In this document: positions 1,744 through 14,444 of the stretch, one piece after another | Numbering within the stretch: the first letter of the stretch is position 1 | Layout: each line of letters begins with the position of its first letter | Translations under genes and position numbers: made by a program | The notes under the pieces: generated by a model | What the model was told of the DNA's origin: nothing | What the model saw: the letters and a program-made list of their open reading frames with translations, nothing else | The model's database searches: none | Virus record (IMG/VR): IMGVR_UViG_3300028589_000023 | Location: 1 to 36,396 of that record | Origin: a virus | Length of the DNA stretch: 36,396 nucleotides | Strand: one strand, 5' to 3'

Positions 1744-2090
1744 CAGATGCTTGCTCCAGTAATTGCTTTGATAACCGCTACTCGACATTGCCTATCGATC
1801 TCATTTGCGAAGAAATCAACAGCGTGTCGCTTCATCTCAGCCTGTTCCTCGATAGGTAGAATATAGGCTGCATGAACCATGGTGTCAACACTCGGAGTCA
1901 AAACATTTTCATCCTCTAGGAAGCTACGGAGGTCATCGATTGTGGTACCACTCTGACGGGCTATCTGAGCCTGTCTGGCGAATTCCATGACTGGTCCACA
2001 CACGACATCCGCTACGGTGCTTTCCGTTGCGAGAGCGGTGCTAGAGGACGCTACAGCTAGGGTTAATGCTATTGCTTTGATCAGTTTCAT
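1743..2090 (-). CDS. Exported small protein with Sec signal peptide, two-cysteine family, copy B (115 aa)
   Basis: Residues 1-21 form a classic Sec signal peptide (basic MKLIK, hydrophobic core, ALA cleavage site), so the mature protein of about 94 residues should lie in the periplasm. It has one cysteine near the start of the mature form (VVCGPV) and one near the end (DRQCRV), placed to form a disulfide. The next gene upstream has the same layout: signal peptide, early Cys, a segment R-x-x-G-x-(T/S)-x-D-x-L, a Y-x-L-P motif, and a late Cys. I read the two as tandem relatives. Start overlaps the upstream TGA as ATGA. Function unknown; envelope modification or blocking of a periplasmic target is only inference. 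Confidence 0.8.
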   Translation of the reverse strand: MKLIKAIALTLAVASSSTALATESTVADVVCGPVMEFARQAQIARQSGTTIDDLRSFLEDENVLTPSVDTMVHAAYILPIEEQAEMKRHAVDFFANEIDRQCRVAVIKAITGASI

Positions 2091-2380
2091 TTCATCTTAC
2101 CAGCTTCACGCATTGCTCGAAGACAGCCACCACGAATCATGTCACCATGCTCTTGTGGATCAGTGGCCCTTGGTAGACTGTAGACATACTCGATTGCGTC
2201 CACCTTGGTGCTGTCATCCGCCCAAGCGTAAATGAGAGAGTCTTTGGAAACTCCTTCAATCCGTTTCTCCATGATAATCTCGTTGAAATCACCAACATGC
2301 ATGCAGAAGGTGACAGGGTTCGCGTGTGCTGTGAATGCTGCAACAGACAAAGCTGTGGCCAGTACTAGTTTCTTGATCAT
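2087..2380 (-). CDS. Exported small protein with Sec signal peptide, two-cysteine family, copy A (97 aa)
   Basis: The ATG at 2380 has AGGAG 7 bases upstream and begins MIKKLVLATALSVAAFTAHA, a signal peptide with AHA cleavage site. The mature part of about 77 residues holds two cysteines (TFCMHV and GGCLRA) and the shared segments R-x-x-G-x-S-x-D-x-L and Y-S-L-P seen in the following gene. It is the first gene behind a sigma-70-type promoter (2436-2407), which puts the predicted start of transcription about 20 bases before the ATG. That promoter also serves the chain of genes leading to the primase. The longer reading to 2473 crosses the promoter and is not used. Confidence 0.82.
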   Translation of the reverse strand: MIKKLVLATALSVAAFTAHANPVTFCMHVGDFNEIIMEKRIEGVSKDSLIYAWADDSTKVDAIEYVYSLPRATDPQEHGDMIRGGCLRAMREAGKMK

Positions 2381-2448: not shown

Positions 2449-2470
2449 AAAAATCCCGCCGAAGCGGGAT
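2449..2470 (-). terminator. Rho-independent terminator with UUCG loop
   Basis: Minus-strand stem ATCCCGC / GCGGGAT closes a TTCG tetraloop (2470-2453), followed by a run of T (2453-2449). It starts 5 bases after the stop of the 2475-2780 gene. Confidence 0.85.
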
Positions 2471-2474
2471 CATT

Positions 2475-2780
2475 TCACTTGTTCAACATTTCCTTCACAC
2501 GGCTGTCAGTGGCCTCGTATTCAGCCTTGCGTTTTGCATCACGTTCAGCTTCACTCAGGGGCTTGGACATCCGGTCAACCATTGGCTTGTCGCTTGCTAC
2601 GGGAGCTACGAACACAGTTGGCTTTACCTCACCTTTCGGCATGTAAGACGGCTGGAAATGGTTGTACAGAAAAATTGCCAGAATGGTGGCTACAGCGATC
2701 TTCCAACTCTTGCGACGGTAGGCCACGTAGAAGCCAGTACCAGCAATCAGGAAGATAATCAGGTTCATTGCTGCGATCAT
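2475..2780 (-). CDS. Small two-helix membrane protein (101 aa)
   Basis: Two hydrophobic segments close to the N-terminus (about residues 5-20 and 26-41, separated by the basic turn AYRRKSWK) predict a hairpin in the inner membrane. A charged, proline- and lysine-rich tail of about 60 residues follows (SEAERDAKRKAEYEA) that should be helical and soluble. With the basic turn in the cytoplasm, both ends would face the periplasm. GAGGAG lies 6 bases before the ATG. The gene follows 2784-2984 with 3 bases between and is closed by a UUCG terminator. No family recognised. Confidence 0.75.
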   Translation of the reverse strand: MIAAMNLIIFLIAGTGFYVAYRRKSWKIAVATILAIFLYNHFQPSYMPKGEVKPTVFVAPVASDKPMVDRMSKPLSEAERDAKRKAEYEATDSRVKEMLNK

Positions 2781-2783
2781 TTA

Positions 2784-2984
2784 TTACTCCTCAGAGAAAT
2801 AGGTTTTATAGCTTCGACCGAACATATCAGGTTCGATAGTAAATAAACAACCTTCAATTGTTAGACAACCATTTGCGATGTGGTCAATCCTCACGCGTTC
2901 AGGCATCCAATTACCACCTGTGCCACCGTCGCGCTTTATCAAGCCTTCGTACCGCTTGTACAACACTTGTCCGACTTTCAGCAT
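2784..2984 (-). CDS. Small hypothetical protein (66 aa)
   Basis: Begins MLKVGQVLYKRYEGLIKRDG and is predicted mostly beta. The opening 'KVGQVLYKRYEG' and 'WMPERVRIDHI' resemble small SH3-like or KOW-like phage proteins, but the resemblance is weak. AAGGAG sits 6 bases before the ATG. The gene lies between the UUCG terminator at 3004-3021 and the two-helix membrane protein. No separate promoter is visible, so it is probably expressed by read-through. Confidence 0.7.
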   Translation of the reverse strand: MLKVGQVLYKRYEGLIKRDGGTGGNWMPERVRIDHIANGCLTIEGCLFTIEPDMFGRSYKTYFSEE

Positions 2985-3003: not shown

Positions 3004-3021
3004 GGCTCCCCGAAGGGAGCC
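3004..3021 (-). terminator. Hairpin terminator with UUCG loop after the SPFH gene
   Basis: Minus-strand stem GGCTCCC / GGGAGCC (3021-3004) closes a TTCG loop and is followed by TTCTTTC. It lies 6 bases after the stop codon of the SPFH lipoprotein gene. The T-run is interrupted, so some read-through into 2984 is likely. Confidence 0.75.
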
Positions 3022-3027
3022 GTTCAA

Positions 3028-3921
3028 TTACTTAGACGCTGGAAGTTGCATCAACATCGAAGTTCCAGAGCCTACCATAGTCTGTGGGTATTTTCCATCC
3101 CACTTCTCGGCCTTAATCTGCTCTACTTCCAGTTCCTTCATACGAATGGTCTGAGAAGTTACGGCCTGTGCCTGTGCTTGGATCTTGATAGATTCGGTTT
3201 CAGCCTTTTCCTTCTCGATCTGACGTTGCAGCTTGGCTTCTTGCAGTTCACGCTCCAGTTGGACCTTGCTCACAGCCAGCTGAGCTTCTTCCTGCTGAAT
3301 TGCCTCACGACGCTTAGCACTGTTCTCCTGAGCCTGAGTGATGATTGGCGGCAGGCTGAACTTGGTGATGCCAGCATACTTCACGTTGAATGGAGTGTTC
3401 TTCTCCATCGACTTTTGCAGAATCACTTGGATGTCAGTGTTGATCTTGTCATTGTTCGAAGTGATTTCAGCAATGGTGTACTGAGTCAGGTAAGCTCGAA
3501 CTTCTGCCAGCATAATCTGCTGAGCGTAAGTGTTGTAGATCGACTGAGCAGTAATGTTGGAGAACTGAGTAGTCTCAGCAACCTGTGGGAGCGAGCCGAA
3601 CAGTGGGTTCACTCGTTTCGGGTCAACCGACAGAGTTGCCTTCAACTGAATACCAATCTTCAGCTTGTCCGATGGAATGAAGATCTCCATCTCTTCGCTG
3701 TATGGGCGGTCGGTACCGTCAACCACAACCAGACGGTCACAGTAAGTCACACAGGCTGGAAGTCGAAACTTCGATGCTGGGATCATTTCTTCCTGATAAC
3801 CATCTTTGGTCAGCAGCTTGGCGAAGTGACCCGGTGGAACTTCAACCTTCTCACCACAGCCAACCATCAGAGCAGCTGCCAGAGCCAGAGCGGATGCTTT
3901 TGCTACGATACTGAATTTCAT
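3028..3921 (-). CDS. SPFH/Band 7-domain lipoprotein (297 aa)
   Basis: Residues 1-21 are a lipoprotein signal peptide ending in the lipobox LMVGC (lipidated Cys22); the following GEK does not carry an Asp+2 inner-membrane signal. Residues about 25-200 look like an SPFH (stomatin/prohibitin/flotillin/HflK-C) domain: 'VPPGHFAKLLTKDGY', the beta-rich 'IFIPSDKLKIGIQLKATLSVDP', then a helix-rich half with 'AEVRAYLTQYTIAEI' and 'YAGITKFSLPPIITQAQ'. Residues about 205-275 are a long Glu/Lys/Gln-rich coiled coil, usual after SPFH domains, where it drives ring assembly. Cellular SPFH proteins such as HflK/C form large membrane cages. A lipid-anchored version would assemble at the periplasmic face of a membrane. 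It has its own promoter and terminator, making it a stand-alone unit. Family call is good; the role in infection is unknown. Confidence 0.82.
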   Translation of the reverse strand: MKFSIVAKASALALAAALMVGCGEKVEVPPGHFAKLLTKDGYQEEMIPASKFRLPACVTYCDRLVVVDGTDRPYSEEMEIFIPSDKLKIGIQLKATLSVDPKRVNPLFGSLPQVAETTQFSNITAQSIYNTYAQQIMLAEVRAYLTQYTIAEITSNNDKINTDIQVILQKSMEKNTPFNVKYAGITKFSLPPIITQAQENSAKRREAIQQEEAQLAVSKVQLERELQEAKLQRQIEKEKAETESIKIQAQAQAVTSQTIRMKELEVEQIKAEKWDGKYPQTMVGSGTSMLMQLPASK

Positions 3922-3951
3922 TTATCTCTCCTTTGTTTGTTGATGGCGCCC

Positions 3952-3980
3952 ATCATACAGGAACCATTTTAGTGTGTCAA
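3952..3980 (-). promoter_or_regulatory. Strong sigma-70 promoter of the SPFH gene
   Basis: Minus-strand TTGACA (3980-3975), 17-base spacer, TATGAT (3957-3952). Predicted start near 3945, leaving a leader of about 24 bases that contains ACAAACAAAGGAG. Confidence 0.85.
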
Positions 3981-4220: not shown

Positions 4221-4248
4221 ATTCTATACTGTTCCTTTTGGTTGTCAA
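4221..4248 (-). promoter_or_regulatory. Candidate sigma-70 promoter
   Basis: Minus-strand TTGACA (4248-4243, overlapping the TGA stop of the 4245-4454 gene), 16-base spacer, TAGAAT (4226-4221). Good hexamers. The predicted start near 4214 falls inside the short ORF that begins at 4219, which weakens either call. Confidence 0.45.
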
Positions 4249-4454
4249 GCGGTTTTCTTCATTACGTGTTTGAGAATCTGAAACACCCTAACCCATGCAA
4301 ACAGAACCCAAGTGACAGGCCAGATTGCGGTGAACAGCAGAGTGAATACAACATTCTCATTCTCTGTCACACATTTTGGTCTGCCGTTCTTACGGAAGGT
4401 TCGGATGAACAGAGCGAGGGTGATGATAAACCCTACGATGTAAATTGCAAGCAT
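4245..4454 (-). CDS. Small two-helix membrane protein, 'WP' family member C (69 aa)
   Basis: ATG at 4454 with AAGGAG 6 bases upstream. Two hydrophobic helices (about residues 2-18 and 35-56) are joined by a basic loop (RTFRKNGRPK), so both termini should face the periplasm and the loop the cytoplasm. The second helix contains A-I-W-P-V-T and the C-terminus is basic (HVMKKTA). The genes at 5527-5745 and 5742-5966 have the same size, topology and W-P position. I take the three as relatives. The longer reading to 4574 overlaps the neighbour by over 100 bases and is rejected. Confidence 0.75.
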   Translation of the reverse strand: MLAIYIVGFIITLALFIRTFRKNGRPKCVTENENVVFTLLFTAIWPVTWVLFAWVRVFQILKHVMKKTA

Positions 4455-4464
4455 TTCTTTCTCC

Positions 4465-4815
4465 TTAGTAATTTCGATTGTGCCAGTTGCAGCATGGACA
4501 ATCGCCGCAAGCTTCAGGCTCGTCATCGTCTTCTTCATCATGCTCTTGTTGCATACGACGATTACGGGCATCAAGTAGGCGTTGAACCTTTACATCGTCA
4601 ATGCGACCATCTGTGACTTGGCGGTCTTCTCGAACCAAAAGGTTGTCGTTGCGGACCCAGAGACAGTCCGCACTCATTGCTCCTCCTCGACCGATCCGCA
4701 CCTGAACCCGGGCCATCTGGTTCTCAGCGTCGATCACGATTGCATCTCGACCATGGTATTCACTACCGTTGGTGATACGAACAAGATCACCTTCAACCAG
4801 CTTACGGTAAGCCAT
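4465..4815 (-). CDS. Hypothetical protein with SH3/KOW-like N-terminus and Cys-rich tail (116 aa)
   Basis: Residues about 5-60 (LVEGDLVRITNGSEYHGRDA, then IVIDAENQMARVQVRI) resemble the small beta barrel of KOW or SH3-like proteins: G-D-x-V-x-I, a G turn, then I-V-I-D. A basic helical segment follows (VQRLLDARNRRMQQE), then a run of Glu and Asp, then a cluster CGDCPCCNWHN with four cysteines and a histidine that could bind a metal. GGAG lies 8 bases before the ATG; the start overlaps the upstream TAA by one base. A nucleic-acid or RNA polymerase contact is possible but unproven. Confidence 0.7.
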   Translation of the reverse strand: MAYRKLVEGDLVRITNGSEYHGRDAIVIDAENQMARVQVRIGRGGAMSADCLWVRNDNLLVREDRQVTDGRIDDVKVQRLLDARNRRMQQEHDEEDDDEPEACGDCPCCNWHNRNY

Positions 4816-5526: not shown

Positions 5527-5745
5527 TTACCTCTCGTTAAAGTAGTTGGCTATACGGTTTAAGACAACAATTGCCCCAAACAGTATTCCAAGAAATGGCC
5601 AAGCGAACACACTAACCACCAAGATGCCACCAACATCTCCAGCGTCGAGGTAGTTACTCCTTGAGTAATCCCAGAGGATTCGGAATCCTATCACAAGTCC
5701 TACCACCATGTAAAGCGTGATTTGCCACCATTCTAACTCAATCAT
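5527..5745 (-). CDS. Small two-helix membrane protein, 'WP' family member B (72 aa)
   Basis: Two hydrophobic helices (about residues 8-25 and 40-62) joined by a polar loop with R-S-N-Y-L-D-A-G-D-V-G-G. The second helix contains V-F-A-W-P-F-L-G. The preceding gene (5742-5966) has the same G-D-V-G then W-P-F layout, so the two are tandem relatives; 4245-4454 is a third, more distant copy. The start overlaps the upstream stop as ATGA. Inner-membrane location is predicted; the role is unknown. Holin-like topology is possible but the gene is in the early region, away from the lysis genes. Confidence 0.78.
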   Translation of the reverse strand: MIELEWWQITLYMVVGLVIGFRILWDYSRSNYLDAGDVGGILVVSVFAWPFLGILFGAIVVLNRIANYFNER

Positions 5746-5966
5746 TCCACACCCTTGTTAACGATGTACTTGACGCCTTCCACGAACCCAATCGCCAACA
5801 GGAATACTAAAGTGAATGGCCAGACAATGCTCAGTACTACCAGGAACCCTACGTCACCACCTCCGATTTTATTCTGATACTTCCTAGCTCCATACATCTC
5901 TACCATCAGGACCAACAGGAACACCACCACAATACCCACTGGATACACGAGCGCAGCCCACTCCAT
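5742..5966 (-). CDS. Small two-helix membrane protein, 'WP' family member A (74 aa)
   Basis: Two hydrophobic helices (about residues 4-24 and 39-62) with a loop G-G-G-D-V-G and the motif I-V-W-P-F-T in the second. Close in pattern to the following gene. AGAGGAG is 7 bases before the ATG. Its first 83 bases overlap the 3' end of the preceding gene in another frame, which is long for this genome; the membrane-helix pattern here makes this frame the better supported of the two. Confidence 0.75.
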   Translation of the reverse strand: MEWAALVYPVGIVVVFLLVLMVEMYGARKYQNKIGGGDVGFLVVLSIVWPFTLVFLLAIGFVEGVKYIVNKGVE

Positions 5967-12384: not shown

Positions 12385-12681
12385 TCATTTCTGTTGGGAC
12401 TTCAAGAAGTCCCTGATGTCTTGTCGAAGTCCAGCAGTCTCACGAATCCAAGACTCTTGAACGTTCTTCAGTTCTTCCTTACTAACCTTTCCTTCCTGAA
12501 GCCTTCCGATAGCCCGTCGGTTAGTGGCTACCTCTTTCTCAACAGAAGCAAAGCGAGCCTCTGTAGATGCCTTGTCACCATTGTACATCGTTGCAGCAAG
12601 ACTGATGAGAGCGATAGCCGCCCAACCGCCAAACTTCTCTATAAGCTGTTGGAGCTTACCTTCACTCTTTGCCTCGCTCAT
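12385..12681 (-). CDS. One-helix membrane protein with coiled coil, lysis-cassette member (98 aa)
   Basis: A charged N-terminus, one hydrophobic helix (about residues 17-33, GGWAAIALISLAATMY) and a long charged coiled-coil half (FASVEKEVATNRRAIGR, KEELKNVQESW). Position after the spanins suggests a role in lysis as a second holin or an antiholin, with the coiled coil either periplasmic (T4 holin-like topology) or cytoplasmic. AAGGA lies about 10 bases before the ATG. Overlaps the o-spanin gene by 20 bases. Last gene of the late transcript. The holin label is not certain. Confidence 0.62.
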   Translation of the reverse strand: MSEAKSEGKLQQLIEKFGGWAAIALISLAATMYNGDKASTEARFASVEKEVATNRRAIGRLQEGKVSKEELKNVQESWIRETAGLRQDIRDFLKSQQK

Positions 12682-12970
12682 TGTTTGTATTTCCTTTTAT
12701 GGTGTAGTTTTCAATCAACCCACGCACGAGTTCCTTATGTGCACGCAAGCATCCAGTGTTATTAGCCCAGCTAGCCCCCAGAGACCTCACTGTAAGCCCC
12801 GGAGGAGTCTCATCACACTCGATCAGCAACAGGTTTAAGGGTATGTACTGCTTCTCGTAGATCGTCTCTCTAATCGGCTCATTGGGCCTTGTTGAGCAAC
12901 CTAACAAGATCGTCAGGAAGACGATCATCGAGATCAGCAACAGGTGGACTGGTTTGATCATTCGCAGCAT
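12662..12970 (-). CDS. Outer-membrane lipoprotein spanin, Rz1-like (102 aa)
   Basis: ATG at 12970 lies 8 bases after GAGG. A hydrophobic signal ends in the lipobox ILLGC (Cys25). The mature part has the usual o-spanin series: 'IRETIYEKQYIPLNLL', a Cys, a proline pair 'ETPPGL', then 'LGASWANNTGCLRAHKEL'. It would be attached to the inner leaflet of the outer membrane and pair with the i-spanin to fuse the two membranes in the last step of lysis. Its start lies inside the i-spanin gene in another frame (92-base overlap), the overlapping type rather than the fully embedded one. A GTG at 12979 is a less likely start. Confidence 0.85.
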   Translation of the reverse strand: MLRMIKPVHLLLISMIVFLTILLGCSTRPNEPIRETIYEKQYIPLNLLLIECDETPPGLTVRSLGASWANNTGCLRAHKELVRGLIENYTIKGNTNNERGKE

Positions 12971-13298
12971 GGTTAGCACCTCGCTGTTTGGTTGGTGGGA
13001 GATTCAAAATCTGAGACTCCAACACCTTCCCATTGCAAACTTCCCTAGTCACATCTTTTGTGATGGTCACAACCTTCTCAGGCTGATTTCGAAGTTCATC
13101 TCGAAGTTTCTGGTTCTCATCATTGATCCTGTTTACTTTTCCAGTGAGAATTACAACCTGCTCATTCTGAACTGAAAGTTGTTTAGTTACATCATTGAGT
13201 GTCAGTGTCTTTGTAACGAGCAGAGTACTGAGAACCAGCACAACCGCCCACAACATCCTCGAAGACACCTTACTTAGCAGTCCTATCAGGAACTTCAC
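12879..13298 (-). CDS. Inner-membrane spanin, Rz-like (139 aa)
   Basis: N-terminal signal anchor (about residues 13-32, MLWAVVLVLSTLLVTKT) followed by a coiled coil (VTKQLSVQNEQVVILTGKV, NDENQKLRDELRNQ) and a C-terminal tail with a cysteine (REVCNG) and a proline-rich end. This is the layout of Rz: a type II inner-membrane protein whose periplasmic coiled coil binds the o-spanin. GTG start at 13298 with GGAGG 8 bases upstream. Overlaps the holin candidate upstream by 29 bases and the o-spanin downstream by 92. Confidence 0.85.
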   Translation of the reverse strand: MKFLIGLLSKVSSRMLWAVVLVLSTLLVTKTLTLNDVTKQLSVQNEQVVILTGKVNRINDENQKLRDELRNQPEKVVTITKDVTREVCNGKVLESQILNLPPTKQRGANHAANDQTSPPVADLDDRLPDDLVRLLNKAQ

Positions 13299-13530
13299 AA
13301 GTGTGCCCTCCTACCTTATCGAGATCTTCAATCTCTTGGTTCAATAGTTTACCAACTCCGTACATTACCGCGAACAATACACCCCACGACATCAACATAG
13401 CAGCAGTGAACGAATCGTTCAGGACACCCAGAAGAGTTAGTCCAGCCATTGAGATAGCCATGAGAAGGTTAGCAATGAATGAATAGAGGTGGTAGTGCTT
13501 GCGAATGTTGTTGTAAAGCTTATTTAGCAT
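13270..13530 (-). CDS. Two-helix holin candidate (86 aa)
   Basis: Two hydrophobic helices (about residues 17-37 and 43-63) with a short turn (LNDSFT), a basic N-terminus (MLNKLYNNIRKHYH) and an acidic then basic tail: class II holin topology. It sits directly between the endolysin and the spanins. With a SAR endolysin beside it, a pinholin that only depolarises the membrane would be enough. AAAGGTGG precedes the ATG by 4 bases, and the start overlaps the endolysin stop by 11 bases. Confidence 0.72.
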   Translation of the reverse strand: MLNKLYNNIRKHYHLYSFIANLLMAISMAGLTLLGVLNDSFTAAMLMSWGVLFAVMYGVGKLLNQEIEDLDKVGGHTCEVPDRTAK

Positions 13531-14086
13531 TCATCCACCTTTCCATTGTTGGTTTGTAATCTGCTGGTTCATCACCCATGCAGTATTTGTATTGCTCAGT
13601 TGCTCGAATCTCCAATCCCGGGAGAACAACCTTCTTCCCATTTACGGTACCATACACCCAACGAGTTAGCTGCTCACAGGCTGCGTCGTAACGCTTTCCG
13701 TTGAGGTTGGCTAGCAGAGTCGAACTGGCGAGGTTACCCACACCCTTGTTGAAGGTGAAGTCTGTGAAAGCACCTTTCATCCATTCACTACGATATGGTA
13801 CCTTTACCATCTGATCCATCAGGCGAATATGCTTCGTCCAGTCCTTCACAAAGATATCGATACACTCAGCTTCGGTGTACACCTTCTTGGGCGTCTCACC
13901 CTTCTGTACGAGGTGTCCGATGCATGTGGTAGCCTTACCCACAGGGTCCATGTGAAGATTGAGCATGAAGCCTTCTGAGGGCACTGTGTGCTGTGTTGCA
14001 ATGTAGGCGCTAGGCCCACTAACACCAGCAGCAAGTAGTGCAACAAAGATTCTCTGCTTCACAGCGTCAGTGAGCTTGAGTTTCAT
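13520..14086 (-). CDS. SAR endolysin, GH24 lysozyme (188 aa)
   Basis: Cleaves the glycan backbone of peptidoglycan. The catalytic triad has the P21/T4 spacing: E38 (in SEGF), D47 (in MDPVG) and T53 (in ATTCIGH), i.e. E-x8-D-x5-T. Residues about 12-31 (IFVALLAAGVSGPSAYIA) form a weakly hydrophobic, Ala/Gly/Ser-rich segment typical of a signal-anchor-release domain. The enzyme would be exported by Sec, held inactive at the membrane and freed when the holin drops the potential. No Cys lies in the anchor, so control is unlike P1 Lyz and more like R21. ATG at 14086 has GGAGG 5 bases upstream; the longer reading to 14128 runs past that site. Confidence 0.9.
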   Translation of the reverse strand: MKLKLTDAVKQRIFVALLAAGVSGPSAYIATQHTVPSEGFMLNLHMDPVGKATTCIGHLVQKGETPKKVYTEAECIDIFVKDWTKHIRLMDQMVKVPYRSEWMKGAFTDFTFNKGVGNLASSTLLANLNGKRYDAACEQLTRWVYGTVNGKKVVLPGLEIRATEQYKYCMGDEPADYKPTMERWMNAK

Positions 14087-14087
14087 A

Positions 14088-14444
14088 TTAACCTCCGTTG
14101 TATGCTTTCTTTCCTCCAATGCGAACACCTACCCACATTAACCATGCCCGCCACCTAGCAACACCTTCATCTCTCAGAGCTTCATAGAACACCCTGTCAG
14201 CGTCCCTACGACTCATCTGTGCTGTTGTGTATAGGTAGTCATGCACTGTGCTGGAGTAGTTCCCGTAGCCCGCGAAGAGAGCATAGAGAGGAAACAGAAA
14301 GACGTTGTGGAAAACCTCAATACTTGCGTAGTTTGTAATGAAGCTTTTGGGGACAATAATGTCCCCATAGACCAAGTCATCAGTCAGCTTCCAGCAGGTA
14401 CGGGCAATCTGTTCTGTCCGCAACGTGCTTTTGAATTTACGCAT
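14088..14444 (-). CDS. DUF1353 family protein (118 aa)
   Basis: Pattern 'VPKSFITNYASIEVF ... GNYSSTVHDYLYTT ... MSRRDADRVFYEAL ... GVRIGG' matches DUF1353: (T/F)-x-(T/D)-(F/Y)-A-S-(V/I), then V-H-D-x-L-Y, then R-x-x-A-D-x-(I/V)-F. Members lie beside lysis genes in many phages. Conserved His and Asp suggest a small enzyme but no activity is established. ATG at 14444 overlaps the upstream stop by 8 bases and lacks a strong ribosome site. Ends one base before the endolysin ATG. Confidence 0.85.
   Translation of the reverse strand: MRKFKSTLRTEQIARTCWKLTDDLVYGDIIVPKSFITNYASIEVFHNVFLFPLYALFAGYGNYSSTVHDYLYTTAQMSRRDADRVFYEALRDEGVARWRAWLMWVGVRIGGKKAYNGG

Follow-up and report, generated by a model that had tools for sequence, protein, structure and literature searches.

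Whether a phage gene for an SPFH (Band 7) lipoprotein forms a unit by itself, and what its product could do in the envelope of an infected cell, is the question raised by positions 3,004 to 3,980 of the analyzed DNA, a viral stretch of 36,396 nucleotides (IMG/VR record IMGVR_UViG_3300028589_000023; hereafter, the window). SPFH proteins are long-standing annotations in phages, and no tested functional role was found for them in the literature. Judging from its sequence and neighborhood, the SPFH gene is half of a conserved two-gene module, which is the unit to study: it encodes a predicted secreted lipoprotein, in which SPFH domains are combined with a helical rod, and adjoins a co-inherited gene for a protein with two transmembrane (TM) helices. 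A strong promoter of host type precedes the module and a terminator closes it.

The SPFH protein and its predicted lipid anchor

The sole Pfam match of the 297-amino acid product (positions 3028..3921, minus strand) was Band_7 (PF01145; E = 1.4e-7, 32.2 bits against a cut-off of 23.6), and PHROG 200, annotated as ‘lipoprotein’, matched it at 1.3e-42 over residues 3-295. A protein search found more than 500 phage records with an SPFH protein of the PHROG 200 family, to which the Band 7 or stomatin-like proteins of KVP40 (KVP40.0339), V22 (ORF42) and T5/BF23 (ORF trn 1.1) also belong; the V22 protein has been classified as a ‘stomatin-like’ class II auxiliary gene (PMC7289586). The SPFH family was therefore already known, but no earlier description of its pairing with a small two-TM partner was found. 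A single profile of 20 phage SPFH proteins diverged too much to be used in scans, for which the narrower A3 and A4 alignments served.

The AlphaFold model (AF2, 56 aligned relatives; mean pLDDT 80.5) consisted of an SPFH region of beta/alpha type, after which came a long helix (residues 192-253) and a second one (256-273), with pLDDT values below 50 in the last 20 residues. In Foldseek searches this model matched human prohibitin best (2.8e-13), followed by the HflK/C assembly (4.4e-10), stomatin (1.5e-9) and QmcA (1.7e-8), with global TM-scores against full-length cage subunits of only about 0.5. Stomatins and prohibitins were also matched in a profile search against PDB sequences. Prohibitins PHB1/2 thus agreed with the window protein in both structure and sequence profile, but they form a mitochondrial TM-anchored heteromer and have no lipobox. 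With HflK/HflC, which build a cage around FtsH, the protein has in common the order of SPFH domain and coiled coil, the periplasmic side and the fold (4e-10), whereas it carries a lipoprotein signal peptide with Cys22 in place of the N-terminal TM anchor, has one subunit type instead of two, and is accompanied by a partner that is no AAA protease. Orthology to HflK or HflC was rejected, given that the NCBIfam equivalogs (TIGR01933 and TIGR01932) yielded no match at E ≤ 0.1.

The signal peptide ends in a lipobox, M-V-G-C (residues 19-22, positions 3856..3867, minus strand), followed by G-E-K, with Cys22 as the predicted lipid-anchored residue, as in bacterial lipoproteins. This cysteine and the glycine at +2 were each kept in 52 of the 56 aligned relatives. 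A cysteine pair, Cys57-x3-Cys61 (positions 3739..3753, minus strand), was complete in 54 of the 56 and entirely missing in the other two, and the mature proteins had no cysteine beyond these and the lipobox one, the pattern expected of a periplasmic disulfide. Moreover, the SPFH domain begins about 5 residues past Cys22, which is the point at which the TM helix of T5-type homologues has just ended, so that the lipid appears to stand in for the TM anchor. The earlier note had read an SPFH domain, a coiled coil and a lipobox with Cys22 from the letters, and had named HflK/HflC and stomatin as folds to compare; all of these readings were borne out, and profile, fold, lipobox and cysteine pattern together make it very probable that the product is a periplasmic lipoprotein. 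Under the enterobacterial rule, lipoproteins without Asp at +2 go to the outer membrane; with a lipobox lacking Asp+2, the SPFH lipoprotein could sit in that membrane and its partner in the inner one. In Pseudomonas aeruginosa, inner-membrane lipoproteins rarely have Asp+2 and favor nearby acidic residues, Asp+2 not being decisive (PMC6469965).

Transcription unit

The near-consensus promoter described by the earlier note was confirmed as a sigma70-type site (TTGACA-17-TATGAT, 11/12; positions 3952..3980, minus strand), which heads the two-gene unit. Matches of 11-12/12 within 200 nt upstream of the SPFH gene were present in 8 of 29 non-redundant phage relatives, compared to 1.9% of stretches of 200 nt taken at random from these loci (p = 5e-8), and are therefore beyond chance; similar promoters precede the homologues in SYP, KVP40, 1.081.O, XacN1 and others. 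The UUCG hairpin between the SPFH gene and the downstream genes (GGCTCCC-TTCG-GGGAGCC, positions 3004..3021, minus strand; fold z = -2.1), which had been taken as the gene's own terminator, was also found, but its tail is merely TTCTTT, so termination is probably partial and the element probably a leaky terminator. A stable hairpin occupied the same intergenic gap in many relatives with non-overlapping SPFH and partner genes.

Beyond the hairpin lie an ORF of 66 amino acids (positions 2784..2984, minus strand) and the partner gene (positions 2475..2780, minus strand), which is thus the next gene but one after the SPFH gene. No promoter-like site of 9/12 or better was detected on the minus strand between position 3952 and these downstream genes, leaving the partner without a strong promoter of its own, and both ORFs are most simply read through the hairpin. 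Partial termination there would lower the dosage of the partner relative to the SPFH protein. A second UUCG intrinsic terminator (GATCCCGC-TTCG-GCGGGATT followed by TTTTTCG; positions 2452..2471, minus strand), stronger than the first, lies 3' of the partner and marks the end of the module. The description of the SPFH gene as a stand-alone, independent cistron was consequently rejected, on the lack of a promoter past 3952, the linkage of the partner to the SPFH gene (see below) and the position of the terminator after the partner. Its assignment to an early region found only indirect support, in the sigma70-type promoters and in SYP, where genes for a helicase and a DNA polymerase neighbor the homologue. 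ORFs about as long as the 66-amino acid one were inserted between the SPFH and partner genes in some Pseudomonas-phage relatives and absent elsewhere.

An RNA hairpin whose loop, CUGACUAUAUGCGG, is conserved and whose stem varies on both sides was observed between the SPFH and partner genes of Pseudomonas-phage relatives (L036:3926, L039:2960, L012:4867 and L060:3926, plus strand; also L106, L116 and L119, the latter phiPMW). The CUGACUAUAUGCGG hairpin also occurred at other places in phiPMW-like contigs, and has the appearance of a hairpin or terminator element specific to phages.

The two-TM partner

The partner is a 101-amino acid protein with two TM helices, a basic loop and a predicted periplasmic tail with a C-terminal helix. 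Its AF2 model placed helices at residues 2-23 and 26-42, followed by an extended stretch and a helix at 77-100. Just past TM2 it carries the signature QPSYMPKG (residues 43-50, positions 2631..2654, minus strand), which is the mark of the partner family in the branch of the window. The TM1-TM2 loop had a mean charge of +3.0 (YRRKSWK in the window) compared to +1.1 at the start of the tail. By the positive-inside rule a basic loop marks the cytoplasmic side; the loop is therefore predicted to be cytoplasmic and both ends periplasmic, the tail sharing its compartment with the SPFH domains.

No Pfam, PADLOC or NCBIfam match above cut-off was obtained for the partner, and good PHROG matches were limited to phage families of unknown function (e.g. 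phrog_15523). The structural search against solved folds gave nothing similar (best E = 4). Two candidate identities were discarded: FxsA (PF04186), the label of the SPFH neighbor in the KVP40 record, which had no Pfam match now, and NfeD, for which there was neither a Pfam match above cut-off nor a structural one. The SPFH-NfeD pairs (QmcA-YbbJ, FloA-NfeD) are likewise operons of an SPFH gene and a membrane-protein gene, and QmcA was matched at fold level (1.7e-8); however, the partner in the window matches neither NfeD nor any other Pfam family and its tail is predicted to be periplasmic, and the QmcA(YbbK)-YbbJ cage faces the cytoplasm (PMC13086221).

Linkage between partner and SPFH lipoprotein

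Among the neighbors of 19 phage SPFH homologues, a small two-TM protein of the same kind adjoined the SPFH gene in most cases. A profile built from 16 of these neighbor proteins and run on the 4,293 ORFs of 102 loci (E ≤ 0.1) matched solely SPFH-adjacent ORFs, many of them outside the training set. The profile missed Microbulbifer and several viral contigs, yet the downstream protein had the same topology there. Clustering of the SPFH proteins at 80% resulted in 44 clusters, 38 with a lipobox and 4 with a TM anchor (T5 type). By profile or topology, the partner was present in about 34 of the 38 lipobox clusters and in none of the 4 TM-anchored ones (Fisher p = 6e-4, with relatives counted as independent); the SPFH versions of T5, BF23, SE131, AD45 and 60AhydR15PP have a TM anchor and no partner, whereas that of the window has a lipid anchor and a partner. 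The lipobox clusters without partner were L083 and L088 (contig end or transposase-like ORF adjoining), L101 (none found) and KB57 (a distant branch). A two-TM neighbor occurred in 29 of the 38 lipobox clusters, against a background of 7%.

The most stringent check ran in the reverse direction: a motif-only scan for QPSYMPKG over 2.9 million viral contigs, which covers this branch of the partner family, retrieved 20 contigs, all 20 of which had already been found through the SPFH lipoprotein; no partner of this branch was detected away from an SPFH gene. In named phages, the partner was restricted to groups carrying the SPFH lipoprotein, at one place per record. The pairing of the two genes can thus be regarded as almost certain. 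It was present in no library searched, and no paper on the phage SPFH-partner pair or on a functional test of it was found.

Distribution and origin

The pairing spans KVP40-type phages, T5-like Aeromonas and Vibrio phages, PS119XW, XacN1, Pseudomonas phages and chromosomes with different flanks. In KVP40, both genes lie on the opposite strand within the baseplate operon, behind their own 11/12 promoter, a placement indicating that the pair behaves as a movable unit. Cellular copies were found in Comamonas, Lampropedia, Thiopseudomonas, Microbulbifer, Neiella, Methylotuvimicrobium and others, and in Microbulbifer, Neiella and Methylotuvimicrobium both genes were on ordinary chromosomes. The flanks, with genes named by eye from translations, looked chromosomal in Neiella (ATP synthase beta gene), Microbulbifer (aminotransferase, proteases) and Methylotuvimicrobium; the Comamonas testosteroni locus had phage-like genes 3-5 kb away on one side and UspA- and PpiD-like genes on the other. 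These chromosomal copies point to an exchangeable envelope module rather than a phage-only weapon. In the maximum-likelihood tree, phage and cellular SPFH sequences interleaved, which suggests that the module was probably exchanged between phages and cells more than once.

Some SPFH loci deviated from the common arrangement. The jumbo phage XacN1 (AP018399.1) was matched at two places in the protein search, perhaps two SPFH paralogues. In the contig L007 (5000-5120)/L055 the SPFH frame starts only within the domain (VPPG...), a signal peptide in frame is missing and the partner is intact, the broken start being a frameshift or sequencing error, and a Bermanella metagenome-assembled genome (L102) had a broken SPFH copy in three pieces.

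Proposed mechanism and alternative explanations

Two pairings of SPFH proteins with membrane proteins are known, SPFH-NfeD (PMC13086221) and HflKC-FtsH (PMC12005517). In the mechanism proposed here, the SPFH lipoprotein would be held by Cys22 at the periplasmic face of the membrane, where HflC and the T5-type homologues have a TM helix, and would assemble into a ring or cage comparable to those of HflK/C, prohibitin and stomatin, the SPFH domains lying on the membrane; by homology with these, closure of the cage is rather probable. The two-TM protein, with both termini periplasmic, would be its dedicated inner-membrane partner, and a physical complex of both proteins is likely. Bacterial SPFH cages often have an integral membrane element (FtsH, NfeD), which makes the partner a natural candidate for that part: like NfeD/YbbJ for QmcA or FtsH for HflKC, it would seat the cage and/or recruit clients via its tail. 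The leaky hairpin would provide many cage subunits per partner. During infection, such a cage would enclose inner-membrane proteins of phage or host, or protect them from proteolysis or stress; the phage module would then be a bacterial module for envelope maintenance that was borrowed and is expressed early.

Such shielding or grouping of membrane proteins in early infection seems the most economical reading and would fit a cellular role too, and protease modulation, superinfection exclusion and lysis were ranked below it; a protective or scaffold role in infection is nonetheless put forward only tentatively. As a whole, a two-gene envelope module with a cage and a dedicated inner-membrane partner is the best explanation, with evenly balanced chances of being right. 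The same balance applies to whether the module adds a third type of SPFH operon to HflKC-FtsH and SPFH-NfeD, namely a lipid-anchored periplasmic cage with a two-TM partner family of its own, mobile between many lytic phages and proteobacterial chromosomes. An obligate-looking partner turns an orphan gene into a testable two-component system, carried by well-studied phages such as KVP40 and by bacteria that can be grown in culture (Comamonas testosteroni, Microbulbifer), and the lipid-anchored variant lets one ask how membrane cages choose their clients and whether phages protect the envelope in this way.

Among the alternatives, the phage lipoprotein could join or mimic the HflKC cage and alter the activity of FtsH, for instance sparing phage membrane proteins. 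Compartment and topology are those of HflK/C (periplasmic SPFH by the inner membrane), HflK/C chains were among the best solved matches of the model, and HflKC-FtsH affects lambda CII (PMC12005517). Modulation of the host protease is however unlikely, since identity in the structural alignments was about 15-18%, no NCBIfam hflK or hflC match was obtained, HflK touches FtsH via an additional C-terminal extension that lies within the cage (PMC12005517) and the SPFH protein of the window is short, and chromosomal hosts have the module as a separate locus. Quite improbable is superinfection exclusion, by which an envelope cage would keep out the DNA of later phages or deny them the receptor. An early-type promoter, the envelope location and the occurrence in many lytic phages agree with it, and a T5 phage lipoprotein is described as mediating such exclusion (PMC9586334), but the non-prophage chromosomal copies weaken it as the ancestral role, the module occurs in phages that differ widely in group and host, and no known defense gene was matched in PADLOC.

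That the two genes are mere neighbors with unrelated functions, kept together by the shared ancestry of the region, would agree with the extensive gene order shared by related phages; it is very improbable in view of a pairing that holds across unrelated phages and chromosomes with different flanks, and of a QPSYMPKG scan that found no partner of this branch without SPFH. Hardly credible, finally, is a spanin-like lysis pair of an outer-membrane lipoprotein and an inner-membrane protein spanning the periplasm, as a lipoprotein without Asp+2 adjoining an inner-membrane protein with a periplasmic tail, and weak matches of partners to holin and spanin profiles, might suggest: those matches were far under cut-offs, cellular copies lie outside prophages, the promoter is of early type, and the window has a separate endolysin (PHROG 7; 13520-14128, minus strand) and an Rz-like ORF with a weak spanin match (12662-12979, minus strand) some 9-10 kb away, so that the module is outside the lysis cassette and an Rz/Rz1 role was rejected.

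Other genes of the window

The lysis genes (13520-14128 and 12662-12979) were located downstream of tail fiber genes. Just downstream of the module, two tandem genes (1743-2090 and 2087-2380, minus strand) encode secreted proteins, both assigned to PHROG 2315 (unknown function), and similar secreted proteins were likewise found downstream of the module in relatives. Three further minus-strand ORFs (5527-5745, 5742-5966 and 4245-4574) encode small, probably paralogous membrane proteins whose second helix has a conserved ‘WP’ (AFAWPFLG, SIVWPFTL and TAIWPVTW), and similar proteins were present in SYP, L006 and L007.
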